A stretch of DNA of 64,000 bases from Nothopassalora personata (taxonomy: Eukaryota > Ascomycota > Dothideomycetes > Mycosphaerellales > Mycosphaerellaceae): positions 2,046,001 through 2,110,000 of the forward strand of contig CM066298.1 in assembly GCA_033816765.1 (NCBI GenBank), read 5' to 3'. The notes beneath the pieces were generated by a model, which worked only from the letters and a program-made list of their open reading frames with translations, had not been told where the DNA came from and did not search any database. A program made the translations under genes and the position numbers. This document shows positions 25,095 through 42,346 of the stretch, in pieces. The stretch's first letter is position 1. The number at the start of each line of letters is the position of its first letter.

Positions 25095-26690
25095 ATGAAG
25101 TTCACCGCAGTCGCTGCAGCTGTGCTGCCTTTGGCTTCAGCCGCCACGTACTCGAAGGAGGAGTATGAGTCTGGTGTTGTCATGGCTGAGATGAGAGCTG
25201 AGAAAGAGGTGAATAGTTTCATGGGTCCTAAATATGAGATTCAAATCGCTGACCTCACCCAGGCACAATGGGCAGCTCACCGTGCTCGCGGCGACTACGA
25301 CTCAAAGAAGTTCAACGGTCAGGGGCCTAAAGGCGATCGTATCAAGTGTGTCGATGGCAAGGCAGATGCTGTCGAGGGAGACCCTTTGCAGACTTTCAGG
25401 TGCAAGGATATTGATATGTATGACTTTAAGTCTCATGCTGAGCTTGGTTCTGCTACTGGAGAGGGATCTGGATCTTGGGGTGAGTCAACGTTCGAAGTAT
25501 TGTCCTCGCCCGCAGGCTGACGACGATCAGGCTGGATCGACAAGGGTTCCCGCCGTGAATTCATCGCCATCGGCCAGGAAGATGGAACGGCATTCGCAGA
25601 AGTCACACAGCAAGGCAAGCTCGTCTACGTTGGCCGTCTTCCACAGCAATCTGCTCCATCTATCTGGCGTGAAATCAAAGTCAACGGCAACTACCTCGTC
25701 GTCGGCTCCGAAGCAGTCGACCACCATGTCCAAATCTTCGACATGCATAAGCTCCTGAACCTGGACCCACAGAACCCAAAGACCTTCAACATTTCAACCG
25801 ACCTCACCGGTCTCTTCAAGGACATGCCAATCGGCCGCTCGCACAACGTCGTTGTCAACGAGGAACTCAACTACGCCGTCGCCGTGGGCTCTGCCCCACG
25901 AAATAGCTCCTGCGCCGCAGGCCTAATCTTCATCGATATGAAAGACCCCTCTAAGCCCTTCTCTCCAGGCTGCGCACCGCAAGACGGTTACGTCCACGAT
26001 GCTCAATGTATCGTCTATCGCGGCCCCGACAAAAAGTACAACGGCCGAGACATCTGCTACGGCTACAACGAAGACACGCTCACAATATACGATGTGACGA
26101 ACAAAACTGGTCCTCAAGCCGCTTCGATTATCTCCCGCACTCCATACAAAGGCGCGTCTTATACGCATCAAGGCTGGGTCTTGGACCCGATGTGGCAAAC
26201 TCATCTCGTGATGGATGATGAACTCGACGAGGGCTCTGTCTCACCTACTCGCGCAAACCCCGAGTCCCCTGCTCTCGATGGCTTTCCCGTTACTTACATC
26301 TGGGACATAACCTCCCTCGAAGCCCCCAAAAACACCGGTTTCTACAAATCCTCTGTTCGCTCCGTGGACCACAACCAGTACGTCTACGACGGGTTGGCAT
26401 ACCAATCAAACTACGGCGCAGGACTTCGAGTTCTCGACGTCAGCACGATCCCAGAGAAGCCTGATGGTTCTGCGGTGGAGGAGATTGCGTTCTTTGATGT
26501 ATATCCAGAGGATGATTTGCTCCCTGGTGGTGGGGCCCCACTATATGCTGGGACTTGGAGCCATTATACTTTCCCAAGTGGGTACATTGTGGTGAATACA
26601 ATCGAGAGGGGCCCTTATGTGGTGAAAATGAGTCAGTTTGCTGGGAGGGGCAAGGGCAGGAGGTATGTGAAGCGTGGACCGGCGATTTAG
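25095..26690 (+). CDS. Secreted LVIVD-repeat (choice-of-anchor B-like) protein
   Basis: Two exons (25095-25479 and 25531-26690) give 514 residues. The 51-bp intron starts GTGAGT and ends GATCAG, phase 1, and the frame continues GSGSWG-WIDKGSRREF. The signal peptide is MKFTAVAAAVLPLASA. The body contains repeated beta-blade motifs of the LVIVD type, e.g. KLVYVGRLP, YLVVGSEAVDHHVQIFDM, AGLIFIDMKDPSKP, and LRVLDVSTIPEKP. Such proteins form beta-propellers and are secreted or surface-bound; no enzymatic activity is established. Several N-glycosylation sites agree with secretion. The splice joins two frames that are each clearly coding, so the model is firm. Confidence 0.85.
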
Positions 26691-31059: not shown

Positions 31060-31277
31060 GCCAGCATGTTGGTGTTCACGCACACGTAGGCGGTCATGGA
31101 TAAGACCATGCCTCGATGAAGTGTACCGTGTAACAATTCCCTCCGAACATCTCCTCTGTGGGCAAAATGCAGCGAGACCGATCAACAATTCTTCGGACTG
31201 AGCTGCCATTCGCACGCAGCAAATGCACATCCAATGCCTGAAAGCAAAAGATGGATTTGACGACATTTGTACGAATG

Positions 31278-31401
31278 TGCCCCTGTTAGGAGTCGAACCT
31301 AAGACCTCATCATTACTAGTGATGCGCTCTACCACCTGCAGACGGTTAGATAATTTCGATTGTATTTCAAGAGAGGGTGAGACGTACTGAGCTACAAGGG
31401 C
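31278..31401 (-). tRNA. tRNA-Thr(AGT) with a 52-bp spliceosomal-intron-like insertion in the D loop
   Basis: Without positions 31336-31387, the minus strand folds into a complete 72-nt tRNA: acceptor GCCCTTG paired with CAGGGGC plus A73, D stem GCTC/GAGC, anticodon stem CATCA/TGATG around loop CTAGTAA (anticodon AGT, threonine), T stem TTAGG/CCTAA with loop TTCGACT. The B box (GGTTCGACTCC) is intact. The insertion sits between GCTCA and GTGGTAGAGC, so it breaks the A box. It starts GTACGT, contains CTAAC 16 bp before its end and ends CTGCAG, exactly like a fungal spliceosomal intron. Normal nuclear tRNA introns lie beside the anticodon, so this position is abnormal. The gene may be dead or rescued by an unusual route. 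Confidence 0.8.
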
Positions 31402-31897
31402 GAAGTCTTACTTGTGCAGAATACACAGCCTGTGGTTGGGCGACATGATGTTGCACAGCTGCTACAGCGAATATCTCACTTGGTAGACCGCCAGAACTAA
31501 AAGGGCCATAAACGACGAGAAGACGCCGCAAACACGATGACAGCACCCAATCAGCACGTTGTAATGCTGCAAAGGCCCCATGATACTCGCCTGGTTCTTG
31601 GGTCGAAAAAATTCTGGCTCGGCAACATCCCGGAGATTCACGCACCGTCGAGCTTGGGCAACCCAGGAGCCAAAAAAGAAAAAAAAACATACAACACAGG
31701 GAATTCCCATACGGTCACCCATTATAGTACTAATCCTGCGATTCCGTGCTTGAGTGCGGCAGAGCGAACGGGATGCCCTGTTTTCACGAATCTGTGGTCG
31801 TATGTGCTGTGGGAAGTGTGTAATGTCTTTATAAAGGTATATTGATAGCGACCAACATTCATTGGGCAAATGCAGTTCCTACTAGGCTTGGAATTCC
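31402..31897. other. Intergenic, no gene; short A-rich tract
   Basis: No supported gene. An A-rich tract lies at about 31670-31690. Overlapping ORFs on both strands carry no motifs. Confidence 0.4.
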
Positions 31898-35193: not shown

Positions 35194-35339
35194 CATTACC
35201 AACGTGTAGAAAGACACGAGAAGCTGCGATCGGGAGATCGCATAAGCAAACGCGACAGCACCTAGGAGTGCTGAGATATTAGGTGCCAGACTCAAATCGA
35301 GTCGCACCTTGAGTAAGTCCAAGGCTAACACGACAGCTG

Positions 35340-37391
35340 ATGGCGAGAAAGAACAACAATAACGACGACGACATGGCGACTACTGACCGCCGCGTACATC
35401 GCGCGAACATCACCAGATCCTCCCTCTTCGTCCTACCCCCCGACGCGACAAACAACGCAAACGGCGATGCGACACAGACTCAAGGCAGAGAAGAGGAGGT
35501 TCTGAAGCAGCTGACGGCTGAAGACAACACCTACCACAAGCAGCACAAGAAGGTCTTCGACCGACTCCAAGAGATCGAGGAGGAGGATGTTGAGACCGAG
35601 CTCAACTTGGCTGACCTGTGTGGGGATGAGTACATCGAGGACATTACTGAGGATGAGAGCGAGGCTCTTGCTCCAGGTGCGAAGAAGAGGAGGGTCACTG
35701 TTGACCAGTTTCAAGACACCTTCGAGTCTCTCAATGGGCTAAGCTCGGAGAAGCTCAAGAAGCGAGTCAACGACTACCCTGAGGAGGTCCACAAGATCCT
35801 TGTCGACATCGAGTCCGACCACCGACGAGCACACAAGACTATTGAGGCTCTCCAACTCGCTAACCGCATCAATATTCGCAAGGCCAAGGATGCGAAGGAG
35901 CAGATGGATCGACTCGAGGACGAAGCTGGTACTGCACAAGCTGAAGCAGACCAGAGACAAGCTGAGGTGGACAAGCTGAAGGCAGAACTTGCGAAGCACA
36001 CCGACAAAGTCATTATCGACCCGGATGAGCTGGACAAGGTCAAAGCCGAGTTGGCCACGACCATGGAAGCGAGGAAGCTGTATCGCACCCAGTGCAAGGC
36101 AGCTGAGGCTAAGCTTGTTGATGCTGAGAAGCGCATCGAGGAGCTTGAGAAGAAGGAAAAGGAGAGACGTGAGAAGCGTGGGCGATCCAAGCAACGCAAG
36201 GACTCACGCAAGGAGTCACCACCTCCACGCACCGAATCCGAGGAGTCGCTGGAGCGTCGTCGCAATGGCAACAAGCCAAAGCCGACTGGAGAAGACGACA
36301 ACCCATCATCAGACTCCTCCGACTCCGAATCCTCCGACAGCGATGACGAGCGCGGTCACCGTCGTGGCAGCAAGCGCAAGAATTCTAAGTCCAAGAAGAA
36401 GGGCTCGAAGAGCAAGGAGCCGCAGTCCCGCTACACCACATACGACTCCACGATGACCACTGGCATTAAGTCGTCAAGTGAGCCGAAGGCACCGAAGGAG
36501 TTCGACCCACTGGATGAGAAGGGCATTAAGTTCGAAGAGTGGCAGCGTGCCGCCGAAGCCAGGCTGGCAGCGTCCAAGTACCGCACTGTCACGGCTTCAC
36601 TGCAGAATGTCCAAAGCTGGCTCAAGAACTCAGCCTGGAAGTATGTCGACTCCAAGATTCCCAGTCTCACCAAGGTCACAAGCGGCACGACACCAGCTTA
36701 CGCCTCGGTTGATGACATGATGGACGATCTGGCAGCCCGCTACGGCACTCGCAATGCGCACGCCACTGCTATGACCAAGCTCACTACACTGGACCAGGGC
36801 GAGAAGCAGAAGTTCAGCGAGTTCTACCCTATCTTCCGCGAGAACGCAGACATTGTCAACCTGGACGCCGGTGCTGCCGACAAGAAGCTTGAGAAGGACT
36901 TCCTGCTGCGCAAGCTGAACGCGAGATACGACAACCGCATCATGAGTGAGAACACGGCCAACATGACCCTTGATCAGGTCGTGTCTGCGCTGTACACTTA
37001 TGAGGACAAGTTCGAGCAGTACGACCTCAAGCACAAGAAGCAGTCCGCTGACAAGCCCAAGAACACTAAGGGCAACGACGACAAGAAGGACGGTGCCACA
37101 GGTGGAGGTAGAGGTGGAAGCACTGACGCTCCTGCCAACCCCAACTCCAAGACCAAGTGGGCCGACCGTCCGCAGAAGTACCAGCACCTGCAGCCACTGG
37201 ATGCTGCCAAGGCGCAAGAGTGCATTGATCAGAACAAATGCATGAAGTGCGAGGAAGTGGGTCACCGCCGTGTCGACTACGACCAGTGCCCACTGAAGGA
37301 CGTTAGCCGGCGTCCATACGCGCCAGGCTACAACCCAAGCACCAACCGACGCAACGGCAATAACACCGGCGGCGGTTCGGGAAACGCATAG
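35340..37391 (+). CDS. gag: Gag polyprotein of gypsy A
   Basis: 683 residues from the ATG at 35340. Residues about 40-290 are acidic then strongly coiled-coil (many KAELA, EELEKKEKE repeats), 290-375 are Ser/Asp/Arg/Lys-rich and disordered, and about 385-540 form the retrotransposon capsid region (FDPLDEKGIKFEEW to FLLRKLNARYDNRI). A zinc knuckle near 634 reads CMKCEEVGHRRVDYDQC, a CX2CX4HX7C variant in which the last spacing is longer than the usual four residues. The frame ends in TAG at 37389, directly after a slippery GGGAAAC. The protein packages the element RNA into virus-like particles. Confidence 0.93.
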   Translation: MARKNNNNDDDMATTDRRVHRANITRSSLFVLPPDATNNANGDATQTQGREEEVLKQLTAEDNTYHKQHKKVFDRLQEIEEEDVETELNLADLCGDEYIEDITEDESEALAPGAKKRRVTVDQFQDTFESLNGLSSEKLKKRVNDYPEEVHKILVDIESDHRRAHKTIEALQLANRINIRKAKDAKEQMDRLEDEAGTAQAEADQRQAEVDKLKAELAKHTDKVIIDPDELDKVKAELATTMEARKLYRTQCKAAEAKLVDAEKRIEELEKKEKERREKRGRSKQRKDSRKESPPPRTESEESLERRRNGNKPKPTGEDDNPSSDSSDSESSDSDDERGHRRGSKRKNSKSKKKGSKSKEPQSRYTTYDSTMTTGIKSSSEPKAPKEFDPLDEKGIKFEEWQRAAEARLAASKYRTVTASLQNVQSWLKNSAWKYVDSKIPSLTKVTSGTTPAYASVDDMMDDLAARYGTRNAHATAMTKLTTLDQGEKQKFSEFYPIFRENADIVNLDAGAADKKLEKDFLLRKLNARYDNRIMSENTANMTLDQVVSALYTYEDKFEQYDLKHKKQSADKPKNTKGNDDKKDGATGGGRGGSTDAPANPNSKTKWADRPQKYQHLQPLDAAKAQECIDQNKCMKCEEVGHRRVDYDQCPLKDVSRRPYAPGYNPSTNRRNGNNTGGGSGNA

Positions 37392-37420
37392 TCCACTCTG
37401 TGAGCGCAACACACAGTGGA
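37379..37420 (+). promoter_or_regulatory. Programmed -1 ribosomal frameshift signal (gag-pol)
   Basis: The heptamer G GGA AAC (37379-37385) stands in the correct X XXY YYZ phase relative to gag. A 6-nt spacer (which holds the gag stop TAG) is followed by a hairpin: 37392-37402 pairs with 37410-37420, 10 of 11 pairs with one C-C mismatch, loop of 7 nt. Slipping back one base moves the ribosome into the pol frame (next codons CGC ATA GTC), which is open without a stop for 1,653 codons. All three classical elements are present at normal spacing. Confidence 0.85.
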
Positions 37421-40400
37421 CGAGACGAGTCAGTACGAGAGTTACGAGATCACGAACATGAGAAGGAGCCTCCAGATAGAGGCAAGAATTTGAGCATATC
37501 GGCACACTCCCTGCTGGCAGCCAACCATTCTGTAGATGAACACAACCCAGTGATAGCTTCTCATCTGGTTATGCCATGCATAGTGAATGGAAAGATCCCT
37601 GCTCAGTCCTTCCATGATGATGGTGCCAACTCTACGTACTTTGACATCGACTTTGCGCATAAGAACGACCTTGATTTGGTCGAGCTGCCCAACCCAATGG
37701 GACTAATGTTAGCAGATGGCCAACCTGCTAGTGAACTGATTACTCACAAAACAACGGCACAGATTCAAATCGGCAATCACGTTGAGACGCGAGTTGGTTA
37801 CTGCACATCGCTGGAATATGATGTTATCCTCGGCCGTCCATGGCACGACGAGCATCAGCCTGTGTTCCACTATGCGTCAGGAACTATGACCCTGTTTTCA
37901 CAATACTGTCGAGAGAACTGCATACATGGCGACGAGCCTGTGTGCGTGCAGTCTATCAACGATAAGGGCGTTACGCCAGTGGGCATCCTGCAGATAGAGA
38001 TACCCGTGCCAGAGTCGTCACCAGCTTCGACAGGATACGTCAAGCCCTATGTCGAAGATGAAGAGCCAGCAGTAGTGCAAGAGACGCACTCCACGAAAGC
38101 CGCTATGAGACATGCGCCACCGGTGGAGATGCAAGACGAGTCGGAGCCATCACACCACGTCCGACAACCATTGCCAGCTGATAGCCCGGAGACCTTGAAA
38201 CGACCAGCACGCCGCACTGACAAGAAGGCGTCAGTGCAGCCGGAGCCGGAGATCGACATCCAACCTATCACTGCCGAGGCATTGAGGCGCATGAGTAGGC
38301 GCAAGGGTTTCAAGGGATGTGAGATCCACATGATGTGGATGTTTGATCCGAAGGAGGACTTGGACAGACAGGTGGCTCGCGATCCCCTGTCCGCCTGCGC
38401 ACTGAATGCATCCGCCATCTCGGCCGACGACTACCAACGCTTCATGAACCCAAAGGACAAGGACCAGGACCCCATACCTTTGTTGCCACCAGAGTTCCGA
38501 GAGATGGCCAGGCTATTCAGTCGCAAGGAAGCAGACAAAGTGCCACCACGGCGACCGGGCGTAGATCATGAGATCAAACTCAAGGCTGGCCAGACTCCAC
38601 CGTTTCGACGACCATACTCCTTCTCTGCACGAGAGAACGAGGTGATCAAGAAGTGGCTCGATGATCAGCTCGAGAAAGGCGCAATACAGCGCAGCGTGTC
38701 ACCAGCAGCAGCACCTGTCCTAATAGTCAAGAAACCAGGAGGTGGGCTGCGGGTCTGTGTCGACTACCGAGCATTGAACGCGATCACAACGAAAAGCCGG
38801 TATCCTATCCCCCTCTTCCAAGAAACACTGGATCGCATTGCAGGAGCGCAATGGTTCACCAAGCTGGATGTCATCGCCGCATTCAACCGCATCCGCATCG
38901 CAGCGGGTGATGAATGGAAGACAGCCTTTACAACGAGGTACGGGCAGTTCGAATGTGTTGTTATGCCTTTCGGCCTGTGTAACGCCCCAGGCACATTTCA
39001 GTCGTTCATCAACGACACGCTTCGTGAGTTCCTAGATGACTTCGTATCATGCTACCTAGACGATGCGCTCGTTTTCAGCAAGACTCGTGAGGAACACGTG
39101 GAGCATGTTATGAAAGTTCTTAAACGACTGGACAAAGCAGGCTTACAGCTTGACATCGACAAGTGTGAGTTCTTTAGACACGAGACGACATACCTTGGTG
39201 TCATCATCACAAATGAGGGCATCAAGATGGATCCTAAGAAAATCGAATGCGTCAAGAACTGGCCCACACCCGCCAATGTCACCGACATTCTGTCGTTCAC
39301 AGGGTTCGCCAATTTCTATCGCAGATTCATCAAGAACTTCAGCAAGATCTGCTTACCGATGACCAAGTTGACCCGCAAGAACGTACCATGGGAATGGTCA
39401 GAAGCTTGCCAGAAGTCGTTCGATGCCCTAAAGCAGGCATTCATCGACGCGCCCACGCTGAAGCACTTCTATCCAGGAAGAGAGACGATCCTTGAAACGG
39501 ATGCATCAGACTACGTAACAGCAGCAGTCCTGTCGCAGCGTAATGAGAACGGCGTACTGCATCCTATTGCATATATGTCCAAGAAAATGGACCCACAACA
39601 ATGCAACTATGACATCTACGACAAAGAGTTGCTGGCCATTGTGCAAGCCTTTGAGGAATGGCGCCCAGAGCTCACCGTCAATGAGTTCGGCACGGACGAT
39701 TACGAGAACCTGCCTGACCCAGAGTCAGCAGAAGACAAGCCGACGCTCGTGTACTCTGACCACAAGAACCTAGAGTGGTTCATGAGCACGAAGCAGTTGA
39801 ATCGCCGCCAAGCAAGGTGGGCCGAGTTCCTCTCTCAGTTCTTCTTCAAGATCGTGTATCGACCAGGGGTGCAAGGCACCAAGCCTGATAGCCTCACCAG
39901 GAGATCTCAGGACTTGCCAATCCACGGTGATCTGAGCGACCCGCGCAATCAGCAGCAGCACCAGGTGCTACTAGGACCAGACCGCATTCTCAACCTGTCG
40001 TCGTCGCGAGTTCTGAACATTAGTGCGAACGACGTGGTCACTCCGTTGACGACTGCGATCCGAGAGCTGTACGCACAGCCAGAGACCGAGGAAGCAGTAC
40101 GGCAGCTAGAGAACGACTTACCCTGTTCTTTGCTACGCAAGCACCGTCTGGATGACCGACACGCCGTGCCAGTAGGAGGCATGATCTACATGAAGAACGT
40201 GTACGGTGGGTACAGTCTCTTTGTGCCTCCTGAGTCAGAAGAAGCACTCGACGACGGTGAAGTGCCAGTACGCACCCGCATCACCCAAGCCTTCCATGAT
40301 CACGCAGTTGCAGGTCACATAGGTGACGAGAAGACGTACGAGCTGGTAGCCCGCAACTACGTCTGGCCTGGCATGGCACGTTTCGTCAAGTCCTATGTGC

Positions 40401-42346
40401 GAGCCTGCCGCATCTGTCGCACGAACAAGAGTACGAACATCCAATACCCAGGGCTGTTGAAACCCTTGCCAGTTCCCTTTGCAGCATGGGAGGATGTTGC
40501 GATGGATTTCGTGACTCATCTGCCACCAGGCAAGAGTGCGCTGGATGGGCAAACGTACGAAGATGCCCTGACCGTCACATGCCGACTTACCAAGGAGAAA
40601 CACATGATCCCAGTTCAATCGATGACTGCAGAGCACACAGCCCTCGTGTACCTGCGATATGTGTTCAGCAGGCATGGACTCCCGAAGAGCATTGTCTCTG
40701 ACCGTGGCACACAATGGGTGTCCGCATTCTGGAGACGTCTCTGCGCCCTGTTGGGAATCAAGCAGAAGCTTTCGTCAGCATATCACCCTGAGACTGATGG
40801 ACAGTCCGAGAACACGAACAAGGCTATGGAGCAGTATTGGCGCATGTTTGTCAACTACGCTCAGGATGACTGGCCAGACTGGACTCCCCTCGCTGAGTTC
40901 ACAGCCAACAATGCCGTGTCAGCTACAACAGGTGTATCGCCGTTCTATGCTAACACTGGCCGCAACCCAAGGTTCTCTGAACTCGAGCTGGATCTTCCAA
41001 TGCCACTCATGCCCCACAAGCAACGCTTGGATGCTGAAGCAGCGGATCGCTTTGCAACAAAGATGCACGACATGCAGCAATATCTTCGCCAACAGATGGC
41101 TCTCGCCCAAGCCGTGCAAGCCGAGTATGCTAATCAGAACCGCACACCAGCGCCGCTCTACAAGGAAGGCGATGAGGTGTGGATTAGCACCGAGAACTGG
41201 ACCATGGAGAGACCTTCACGAAAGATGGATGTCAGGTGGTCGGGCCCGCACGTGATCACGGAGGTGCTTCCGGGCAATGCTTACAAAGTGGATCTCCCAC
41301 CCACCATGAATATCGACAACCACTTTCATTCGCACCTTCTTGCACCAGTACACCCGCCAGTCCAGGGACAAGTACAACCAGCTCCTCCGCCGATTCGCAT
41401 TGTCGACGATGAAGAGCACGAGACCGACCCCGCCGAACCCGACCACTGGGAAGTTGAGCAAATCCTGGATTGCAAGAAGAGATGGCCGTGCGGACGCGCA
41501 CCAGCAGGAGGGAAGCAGCCGTATTGGGAATACTTGGTGAAGTACGTTGGATACAATCGGCCATCCTATGAAGCTGCGGATCAGGTTATTGAGGGTGCCG
41601 CCGCCTCTGTGGCCGACTTTCACCACAACCACCCGCGAGCGACCAAACCACCTGGTTTTCAACCACCTGCAGACTGGGTTGCAAATGAGAATGCCACAGG
41701 CATGCGAGTAGCACGCACAGCACCCACGTCGTCAGCAGCGATGACTCTGATGCCGGTGGGACCAGGCCTCCGGACTTGTGAGAAAGAGAGCGATACGCGT
41801 CGCGATAACGATCCTTCTCGACAAGCAGACCGAGTCCCTGAAGCTGAGCGCTTGCGTGGCGCGAGTCACAATGGCAGCAACACTGCCGATGGTCATCAGA
41901 ACACAGTGTGCAGCCGCCTAGATGGCGCGAGTCACTATGGCACAGGGCGCCTGTGCGACGAGCTCAGTACACACACCGAAGAGGACACCGTCCGGACAGT
42001 AACTGAGGTTGCTGTGCCGTGTCGCCGCGACAACCCACCTGCGTTACGTAGCATCATGGATGGTCACGAGGTGGGTACAACGACAGTGGTTACGAATGAC
42101 GATGAGATGGACGTAATAGATAACGACCTGATGGATGATGAGACATTTGCAATGGCAATGATGGATGTGAGAGGAAAGAGTGCTCCGGAGCGCACTCTGA
42201 AAGGGGGGGGTAGTGTCACCGTACCGGCGCCCATCATTCACTTGGACCCGCGCGCACGTGCGTGGATCCCGCGCGCGCCGCTGACTAAGCCGGCCCGAGG
42301 GCTTGGCGCGTGTATATCTACCTCGCGCCCTCCGCGCCTCTCTTAG
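37385..42346 (+). CDS. pol: Pol polyprotein of gypsy A (protease, RT, RNase H, integrase, chromodomain)
   Basis: Expressed as Gag-Pol by -1 frameshift, so it has no ATG start of its own; 37385 is the first codon after the slip. Order (residues from 37400): aspartic protease about 65-150 with FHDDGANST, where DDG replaces the usual D-S/T-G, and ILGRPW; reverse transcriptase about 430-610 with LRVCVDYRALNAIT, MPFGLCNAPGTFQ and the catalytic YLDD at about 550; RNase H with TDASDY and YDKELLAIV; integrase with the HHCC zinc finger (HDHAVAGH...CRICR) and the D-D-E core (DFVTHL, SDRGTQW, DGQSEN); GPY/F-type segment; chromodomain about 1348-1413 (WEVEQILDCKKRW, YLVKYVGYNRPSYE). The frame runs 133 nt into the 3' LTR. 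Confidence 0.95.
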   Translation, partial: RIVHSVSATHSGRDESVRELRDHEHEKEPPDRGKNLSISAHSLLAANHSVDEHNPVIASHLVMPCIVNGKIPAQSFHDDGANSTYFDIDFAHKNDLDLVELPNPMGLMLADGQPASELITHKTTAQIQIGNHVETRVGYCTSLEYDVILGRPWHDEHQPVFHYASGTMTLFSQYCRENCIHGDEPVCVQSINDKGVTPVGILQIEIPVPESSPASTGYVKPYVEDEEPAVVQETHSTKAAMRHAPPVEMQDESEPSHHVRQPLPADSPETLKRPARRTDKKASVQPEPEIDIQPITAEALRRMSRRKGFKGCEIHMMWMFDPKEDLDRQVARDPLSACALNASAISADDYQRFMNPKDKDQDPIPLLPPEFREMARLFSRKEADKVPPRRPGVDHEIKLKAGQTPPFRRPYSFSARENEVIKKWLDDQLEKGAIQRSVSPAAAPVLIVKKPGGGLRVCVDYRALNAITTKSRYPIPLFQETLDRIAGAQWFTKLDVIAAFNRIRIAAGDEWKTAFTTRYGQFECVVMPFGLCNAPGTFQSFINDTLREFLDDFVSCYLDDALVFSKTREEHVEHVMKVLKRLDKAGLQLDIDKCEFFRHETTYLGVIITNEGIKMDPKKIECVKNWPTPANVTDILSFTGFANFYRRFIKNFSKICLPMTKLTRKNVPWEWSEACQKSFDALKQAFIDAPTLKHFYPGRETILETDASDYVTAAVLSQRNENGVLHPIAYMSKKMDPQQCNYDIYDKELLAIVQAFEEWRPELTVNEFGTDDYENLPDPESAEDKPTLVYSDHKNLEWFMSTKQLNRRQARWAEFLSQFFFKIVYRPGVQGTKPDSLTRRSQDLPIHGDLSDPRNQQQHQVLLGPDRILNLSSSRVLNISANDVVTPLTTAIRELYAQPETEEAVRQLENDLPCSLLRKHRLDDRHAVPVGGMIYMKNVYGGYSLFVPPESEEALDDGEVPVRTRITQAFHDHAVAGHIGDEKTYELVARNYVWPGMARFVKSYVRACRICRTNKSTNIQYPGLLKPLPVPFAAWEDVAMDFVTHLPPGKSALDGQTYEDALTVTCRLTKEKHMIPVQSMTAEHTALVYLRYVFSRHGLPKSIVSDRGTQWVSAFWRRLCALLGIKQKLSSAYHPETDGQSENTNKAMEQYWRMFVNYAQDDWPDWTPLAEFTANNAVSATTGVSPFYANTGRNPRFSELELDLPMPLMPHKQRLDAEAADRFATKMHDMQQYLRQQMALAQAVQAEYANQNRTPAPLYKEGDEVWISTENWTMERPSRKMDVRWSGPHVITEVLPGNAYKVDLPPTMNIDNHFHSHLLAPVHPPVQGQVQPAPPPIRIVDDEEHETDPAEPDHWEVEQILDCKKRWPCGRAPAGGKQPYWEYLVKYVGYNRPSYEAADQVIEGAAASVADFHHNHPRATKPPGFQPPADWVANENATGMRVARTAPTSSAAMTLMPVGPGLRTCEKESDTRRDNDPSRQADRVPEAERLRGASHNGSNTADGHQNTVCSRLDGASHYGTGRLCDELSTHTEEDTVRTVTEVAVPCRRDNPPALRSIMDGHEVGTTTVVTNDDEMDVIDNDLMDDETFAMAMMDVRGKSAPERTLKGGGSVTVPAPIIHLDPRARAWIPRAPLTKPARGLGACISTSRPPRLS
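42201..42210 (+). promoter_or_regulatory. Polypurine tract of gypsy A
   Basis: aagggggggg, three bases before the 3' LTR; serves as plus-strand primer in the gypsy replication cycle. It also lies within the pol reading frame. Confidence 0.75.

Follow-up and report, generated by a model that had tools for sequence, protein, structure and literature searches.

An interrupted tRNA-Thr gene

The window, by which is meant the whole stretch of 64,000 nucleotides of Nothopassalora personata that was analysed, carries on its minus strand a tRNA-Thr(AGU) gene (31278..31401) that is interrupted in the D loop, and that ARAGORN calls as tRNA-Thr(agt) once the insert has been excised. Exon 1 (31388..31401, minus strand) comprises the 5' strand of the acceptor stem, positions 8-9, the 5' strand of the D stem and A14, and includes the first half of the A box, TAGCTCA (31388-31394, minus strand). 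Exon 2 (31278..31335, minus strand) extends from the remaining D loop, through the anticodon AGT, to the discriminator base, and contains an uninterrupted B box, GGTTCGACTCC (31289..31299, minus strand), identified from the box consensus. Between tRNA positions 14 and 15, dividing the A box, lies a 52-nt GT-AG intron (31336..31387, minus strand), which begins with the 5' splice site GTACGT (31382..31387, minus strand), ends with the 3' splice site CTGCAG (31336..31341, minus strand) and holds the branch-point motif CTAAC (31345..31349, minus strand), whose A, at 31346, is found 10 nt from the intron 3' end. Excision of the 52 bp generates a 72-nt tRNA-Thr(AGU) in which the acceptor, D, anticodon and T stems are all paired, the span reported by ARAGORN being one 3' base longer than this product; three adjacent excisions yield the same tRNA, GT..AG being one among the three. 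An intron at the canonical position 37/38 is absent from this gene. The original prediction had described a perfect 72-nt tRNA restored by removal of this segment, the three intron motifs and an insert that breaks into the A box, all of which are borne out. The first TTTT 3' of the gene, 28 nt past its end (31246..31249, minus strand), is a possible candidate for its Pol III terminator.

In its unspliced form the gene escapes recognition: ARAGORN in default mode finds no tRNA, its intron mode returns a tRNA-Leu call, and the Rfam tRNA model scores 27.4 bits against a cut-off of 29. The only Rfam match in the window at gathering level is an uninterrupted 5S rRNA gene (31686-31805, minus strand, 79 bits), which shares the strand of the tRNA-Thr gene and precedes it by approximately 285 bp.

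Interrupted tRNA genes across the genome

In the textbook view, introns of nuclear tRNA genes are removed by the tRNA endonuclease. The insert in the window is of another kind, and it cannot be ascribed to chance, since 24 further tRNA genes in this genome carry inserts of this type, whose excision likewise yields good cloverleaves. The earlier reading, in which a nuclear tRNA gene has its D loop split by an intron of the spliceosome type, is upheld; it missed the extent of the phenomenon, which takes in much of the tRNA set, genes with two or three introns and a U6 gene.

The genome search covered 54.5 Mb in 40 contigs and relied on patterns combining a T arm with a downstream T-run, on DNA searches, and on the subsequent solving of the fetched regions. 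This led to a partial inventory of 43 nuclear tRNA genes with 24 anticodons (42, to which L119 was then added). A total of 34 GT-AG introns interrupt 25 of these genes, with one to three introns per gene; 21 genes carry both a GT-AG intron and an insert at position 37/38, four carry GT-AG introns only, 16 a 37/38 insert only and two neither, the 37/38 insert being present in 37 of the 43. The GT-AG introns measure 50-80 nt, with a median of 54 (n=34), and occupy 19 different positions of the mature tRNA, from after 6 to after 56, in the acceptor stem, D arm, anticodon stem, variable loop, T stem and T loop; none of the 34 is at position 37/38. The tRNA-Cys(GCA) gene L088 has three GT-AG introns in addition to its 37/38 intron, and seven genes (L039, L047, L053, L059, L074, L084 and L119) have two each. 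Introns fall inside the A-box region (positions 8-19) in ten of the 43 genes and inside the T loop, which holds the B box, in one (L119). A TATA-like motif was found upstream of 6/10 genes with an intron at positions 8-19 versus 13/33 of the others, a comparison that is uninformative.

Five isoacceptors, each with at least two solved genes, had no uninterrupted member among them, namely Thr-AGU (3/3), Phe (3/3), Asp (3/3), Glu-CUC (5/5) and Arg-ACG (2/2), while Val-AAC (1/2) and Thr-CGU (1/2) were mixed. The original prediction had proposed a count of the other tRNA-Thr(AGT) genes. A DNA search of the genome with exon 2 yielded two more Thr(AGU) genes, both interrupted after position 10 by other GT-AG inserts, and the search with mature sequences described below showed no uninterrupted copy among its best candidates.

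These counts are shaped by the manner in which the genes were found. A generic T-arm pattern performed approximately as expected by chance (261 matches versus 235 in a reversed control) and was replaced by the patterns that include a T-run; these miss genes with an interrupted T loop, L119 having been reached through the mature-sequence search alone. The catalogue solver accepted GT..AG inserts only, with a filter on the +3 or +5 base and a small motif bonus, and inserts of other kinds would therefore escape the catalogue. The count of 43 leaves out 11 T-arm-like loci (L022, L041, L042, L060, L076, L079, L081, L085, L086, L087 and L090) and the degenerate Arg copy L120, and ordinary genes for Leu, Ser, Lys, Asn, Trp, initiator Met and others lie outside this partial set. 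Several loci were discarded by eye as chance or non-tRNA T-arm matches (L033, L045, L055, L071, L073, L080, L093-L095, L103, L104, L012-L015 and L024). One of the two intron-free genes in the count, L072 (G000:C13 near 602100, on a 0.93-Mb contig), resembles a class-I tRNA gene, is uninterrupted, and combines the anticodon CAG (Leu) with a variable loop that is short, which is unusual for a nuclear tRNA-Leu.

Intron motifs and excision tests

The first 32 introns of the catalogue share a well-defined set of motifs. At the 5' splice site, +3 is A or G in 30/32 and +5 is G in 32/32, figures to be read with the fact that the +3 or +5 base formed part of the catalogue filter and that GT..AG was built in by construction. 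The 3' end is YAG in 29 of the 32, and a CTRAY branch motif occurs in 27/32, compared to a mean of 7.1 and a maximum of 14 in 1000 shuffles. In our own count, YTRAY with its A 10-12 nt before the intron end is also present in 27/32, and YTRAY is missing altogether from two. Two mRNA introns in a window gene for a choice-of-anchor-like protein, delimited through homologous proteins, have a similar build: intron 1 (25209..25262, plus strand) is 54 nt long and reads GTGAAT..CTGAC..CAG, intron 2 (25480..25530, plus strand) is 51 nt long and reads GTGAGT..CTGAC..CAG, and in both the A of CTGAC is 10-12 nt from the intron end. The lengths of the tRNA introns are typical of host mRNA introns, as represented by these two. 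Splice-site consensus, a branch motif at fixed distance and length are thus all as expected of U2-type introns. A consensus scan of the window for intron-like stretches gave 10, versus 5-11 in shuffled sequence, with no excess.

Since the solver tried GT..AG only, the first 32 introns were subjected to a separate, motif-blind test, in which excisions were ranked by cloverleaf score only. GT..AG was in the best set for 28/32, with 1.2 expected; the four introns outside the top set were those of L019, L047 (position 23), L083 and L089. A second test started from 89 T-arm anchors. One excision, of whatever kind, sufficed to solve 20 loci, and GT..AG came first among the 256 dinucleotide pairs, with 13 of the 20 loci, the other 255 pairs averaging 0.33. 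The runner-up, GG..CA (10 loci), looks like the same cuts shifted by one base. GT..AG was not favoured at the remaining seven loci, two of which are L019 and L083, while the other five are copies of a tRNA-like element that is repeated in the genome.

Could such inserts be introns of the tRNA endonuclease placed outside the anticodon loop, with GT, CTAAC and AG merely incidental? Endonuclease introns that carry the bulge-helix-bulge (BHB) motif are described for archaea and the red alga Cyanidioschyzon merolae, where they also occur several to a gene in the D, T and variable arms (PMC3978253, in its available part), and the prevalence of 37/38 inserts in the present genome lends the idea some ground. 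However, the 4-bp central helix of the BHB motif, the one element scored, is possible in only one of the 34 introns, against 1.3 in shuffled sequence, so that the motif on which the archaeal and Cyanidioschyzon introns depend is here at chance level. In addition, endonuclease introns would not be expected to show GT followed by G at +5, YAG and a branch motif whose distance is fixed; the lengths match those of the two mRNA introns, and this explanation is considered extremely improbable. The canonical 37/38 introns, which also interrupt nuclear tRNA genes, including 21 of the 25 described here, differ in the same manner, being cut by the endonuclease, lying in the anticodon loop and needing neither GT-AG ends nor a branch motif.

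Group I or II self-splicing introns do not fit the size, 50-80 nt versus a catalytic fold of hundreds of nucleotides, and none is among the Rfam matches of the window at gathering level. An assembly chimera would be implausible, given that as many as 34 inserts, spread over numerous contigs, have their motifs in common.

Conservation of the mature tRNAs

Comparison of paralogues indicates that the interrupted genes are alive. Three Phe genes have identical mature sequences (73/73) and introns at positions {10,30}, {30} and {10,25}; three Glu genes are identical as well (72/72), with introns at {16,51}, {16,51} and {51}. The Thr(AGU) genes L010 and L011 encode the same 72-nt mature tRNA, and the same holds for the Asp genes L044 (intron 28) and L119 (introns 48 and 56, the latter inside the T loop), from which a third Asp gene, L034 (intron 27), differs by one base (71/72). 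Mature sequences agree at 70/72 positions between Arg L075 and L077, and Glu-CUC L052 and L064 form a more diverged pair (63/73). Every paralogue thereby provides an empty site for the introns of its sisters.

The introns themselves have fared differently. At sites shared by paralogues they are 44-64% alike, versus shuffled means of 44-51%; four of the ten pairs exceed the shuffled 95th percentile and six do not, the likeness that persists being faint or gone. Mature sequences that have been kept while introns diverged point to selection that held the spliced product as the introns drifted.

The proposal that interruption marks gene copies which are dead or in decay finds some footing in the existence of degenerate relatives, such as L120 and the Thr-like L022. 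In a dead gene, however, decay of exon and intron would run alike, whereas the Phe, Glu and Thr(AGU) paralogues combine mature sequences that are 100% identical with shared-site introns that are 44-58% alike, and several isoacceptors are interrupted in all solved copies, with no uninterrupted copy among the best candidates. A genome search with 19 distinct mature sequences retrieved, among the best candidates listed, 40 matches and no full-length uninterrupted copy of any query; the matches were exon pieces, relatives that are partial or degenerate, and one gene free of interruption, for Val(AAC), at 91%, and since only best candidates were covered, this absence does not amount to proof. Taken together, these data leave the dead-copy explanation with almost no credence. 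The original prediction had held that the gene either died or is read from a Pol II transcript; given the interruption of Thr(AGU) in 3/3 copies, the conserved mature sequences of the paralogues and, more weakly, the absence of TTTT described below, this alternative is not supported.

Two degenerate loci were noted: L120 (G000:C6:4752724) is a tRNA-Arg(ACG) copy whose T-arm region contains a GT..AG stretch of 35 nt, and L022 (G000:C8:1863901) is a copy of a tRNA-Thr-like gene.

Transcription and the U6 gene

The usual substrates of the spliceosome are Pol II transcripts, and it could be argued that the same introns reside in genes read by Pol II in longer capped transcripts, from which the tRNA is cut out after splicing; the introns that strike the A box in 10/43 genes and the B box in L119 would fit such a scheme. 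Against this stands the lack of TTTT in all 34 introns and all 43 solved genes. In shuffles of the first 32 introns, TTTT occurs 3.5 times on average (P about 0.016), and its absence weakly favours Pol III over Pol II. T-runs lie just downstream of the genes but were not counted in favour of Pol III, as the pattern through which most of the genes came to light requires one. Spliced U6 and U3 RNAs, as presented in the available part of PMC5832005, also offer a precedent for the splicing of small transcripts other than mRNA. Transcription by Pol II is thus regarded as unlikely, and transcription of the interrupted tRNA genes by Pol III as the favoured reading.

A U6 gene, L136 (1457-1717, plus strand, G000:C6 near 4370284), appears to have three introns of the same type: the putative GT-AG introns measure 51, 53 and 54 nt and carry the same motifs. 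Once the exons are joined, identity to the Rfam consensus increases from 71/112 in the Rfam-matched stretch, which in the unspliced gene is chiefly the middle exon, to 84/115 aligned columns. The third intron holds a TTTT, which disfavours a strict rule against such runs. A second, diverged U6-like gene, L135 (1501-1600, G000:C3:3902167; 78/113), has no introns and ends in a T-run.

Origin of the introns

Introner-like elements of Dothideomycetes are also spliceosomal introns, gained in related fungi, and the original prediction had suggested that the window intron derives from such a mobile element. The close relatives Fulvia fulva, the tomato leaf-mould fungus, and Dothistroma septosporum are known introner hosts (PMC4457414, in the part available). 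Among proteins encoded in the window, Sed5/syntaxin-5 shares 96% identity (336/350) with its Fulvia fulva counterpart and 85% with that of Zasmidium cellare; for a second protein, Pseudocercospora fuligena (78%) ranks first among the 120 matches listed, which include no Fulvia. These matches suggest a genome of the Mycosphaerellaceae close to Fulvia. However, when 32 introns were joined as a query against the genome, in a search that skips very common words, the 26 matches were all to the introns' own places and together covered 32/32. The many near-identical intron copies by which introner-like elements are recognized were not found for the tRNA introns, which show no repeat family in that search, in contrast to the Dothideomycetes introners, and the available part of PMC4457414 does not mention tRNA. 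Recent copies of an introner-like mobile intron are therefore a very unlikely source. The tRNA introns may be old, and may go back to ancient introners, as old introners lose their likeness.

Two patterns searched in viral contigs gave no match, and an 18-base pattern searched in genome contigs had prokaryotic titles among the matches listed.

A probable role for the spliceosome in tRNA maturation

The window very probably contains a working nuclear tRNA-Thr(AGU) gene with a 52-nt U2-type spliceosomal intron at 14/15, one member of a genome-wide set, whose expression would involve Pol III and the spliceosome. The support, all at the level of sequence, includes the introns and their motifs, the exact restoration of cloverleaves, the empty sites in paralogues and the conserved spliced product. 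In the corresponding pathway, the interrupted tRNA genes would be transcribed by Pol III, the spliceosome would take out the GT-AG introns, and the tRNA endonuclease and ligase would take out the 37/38 intron, where there is one (21 of the 25 genes), before the spliced tRNA enters its usual maturation.

Since several isoacceptors are interrupted, the spliceosome would be an obligatory tRNA-processing enzyme for them, and cells would probably need the mRNA-splicing machinery to obtain working tRNAs. It is quite likely that this obligation extends to the lineage, where Thr-AGU, Phe, Asp, Glu-CUC, Cys and His were present among the solved genes only as genes with GT-AG introns, and that Pol III transcripts are generally open to intron gain, as the U6 gene with its three introns suggests. 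With such a U6 gene, the spliceosome would be required to make one of its own RNAs. If this is correct, two splicing systems are joined in one transcript, a split A or B box does not prevent a gene from being transcribed and its RNA from being spliced, and the tRNA introns represent a natural test of intron gain in small structured genes.

Spliceosomal introns in small structured RNA genes are known. According to the available part of a 2017 study, frequent interruption by an intron was at that time known for no small structured RNAs other than U3 and U6, and work on fungal U6 introns is cited there (PMC5832005). The introns of fungal U6 snRNA and U3 snoRNA genes are likewise GT-AG and offer a precedent for the mechanism; the present case differs in that many tRNA genes are involved, with up to three introns per gene, alongside a second intron type. 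What appears to be new is tRNA as a host class, the scale, and the coexistence with 37/38 introns. Reviews of tRNA introns describe endonuclease introns (PMC4090602, PMC3978253), the available part of the former making no mention of the spliceosome; nor does that of the tRNAscan-SE 2.0 paper, in which the noncanonical-intron search is for archaeal candidates. No report of spliceosomal introns in nuclear tRNA genes was found in a literature search that covered titles and abstract openings, with few subscription papers and no bioRxiv preprints.

The trait may hide in other published genomes, given that standard tRNA finders can miss such genes. As the window gene goes undetected by both ARAGORN and the tRNA model of Rfam, the numbers of tRNA genes given for related fungi may be incorrect; a possible case is Zymoseptoria tritici, in which 11 codons were without isodecoder tRNAs by tRNAscan-SE (PMC5315462, in the part available).

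Repeated tRNA-like elements

The Rfam search of the genome returned 60 full-length nuclear tRNA-like matches outside contig C17 and three more on C17, which looks mitochondrial; the search was not exhaustive, since it missed the uninterrupted Val gene L027. Six matches that would pass for intact nuclear tRNAs were examined (L004-L008 and L020) and, together with the copy L018, proved to be a tRNA-like stretch within a repeated element rather than ordinary tRNA genes, a reading that covers these seven singly examined copies, with 54 other Rfam matches outside it. Five copies of the element (for instance G000:C1:7751404) were called by ARAGORN as stop or Pyl, with anticodon TTA or CTA. The tRNA-like stretch of L004-L008, L018 and L020 lies downstream of what we take to be the end of a chromodomain.

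A different repeated element, of approximately 130 nt, has tRNA-like ends, GGAGAGGTCGTCTAACGGC ... GGTTCAATTCCTTCCCACTCC, a conserved middle and a T-run. It is present in at least 15 copies in 12 loci (L040, L048, L049, L054, L056-L058, L061, L062, L065, L066 and L068), including one array with a spacing of about 160 bp, and an Rfam search with one copy (L040) gave no match. Within the window itself, two long open reading frames at 35313-42346 (plus strand) resemble gag and pol, and presumably belong to a retrotransposon of the Ty3/gypsy type.
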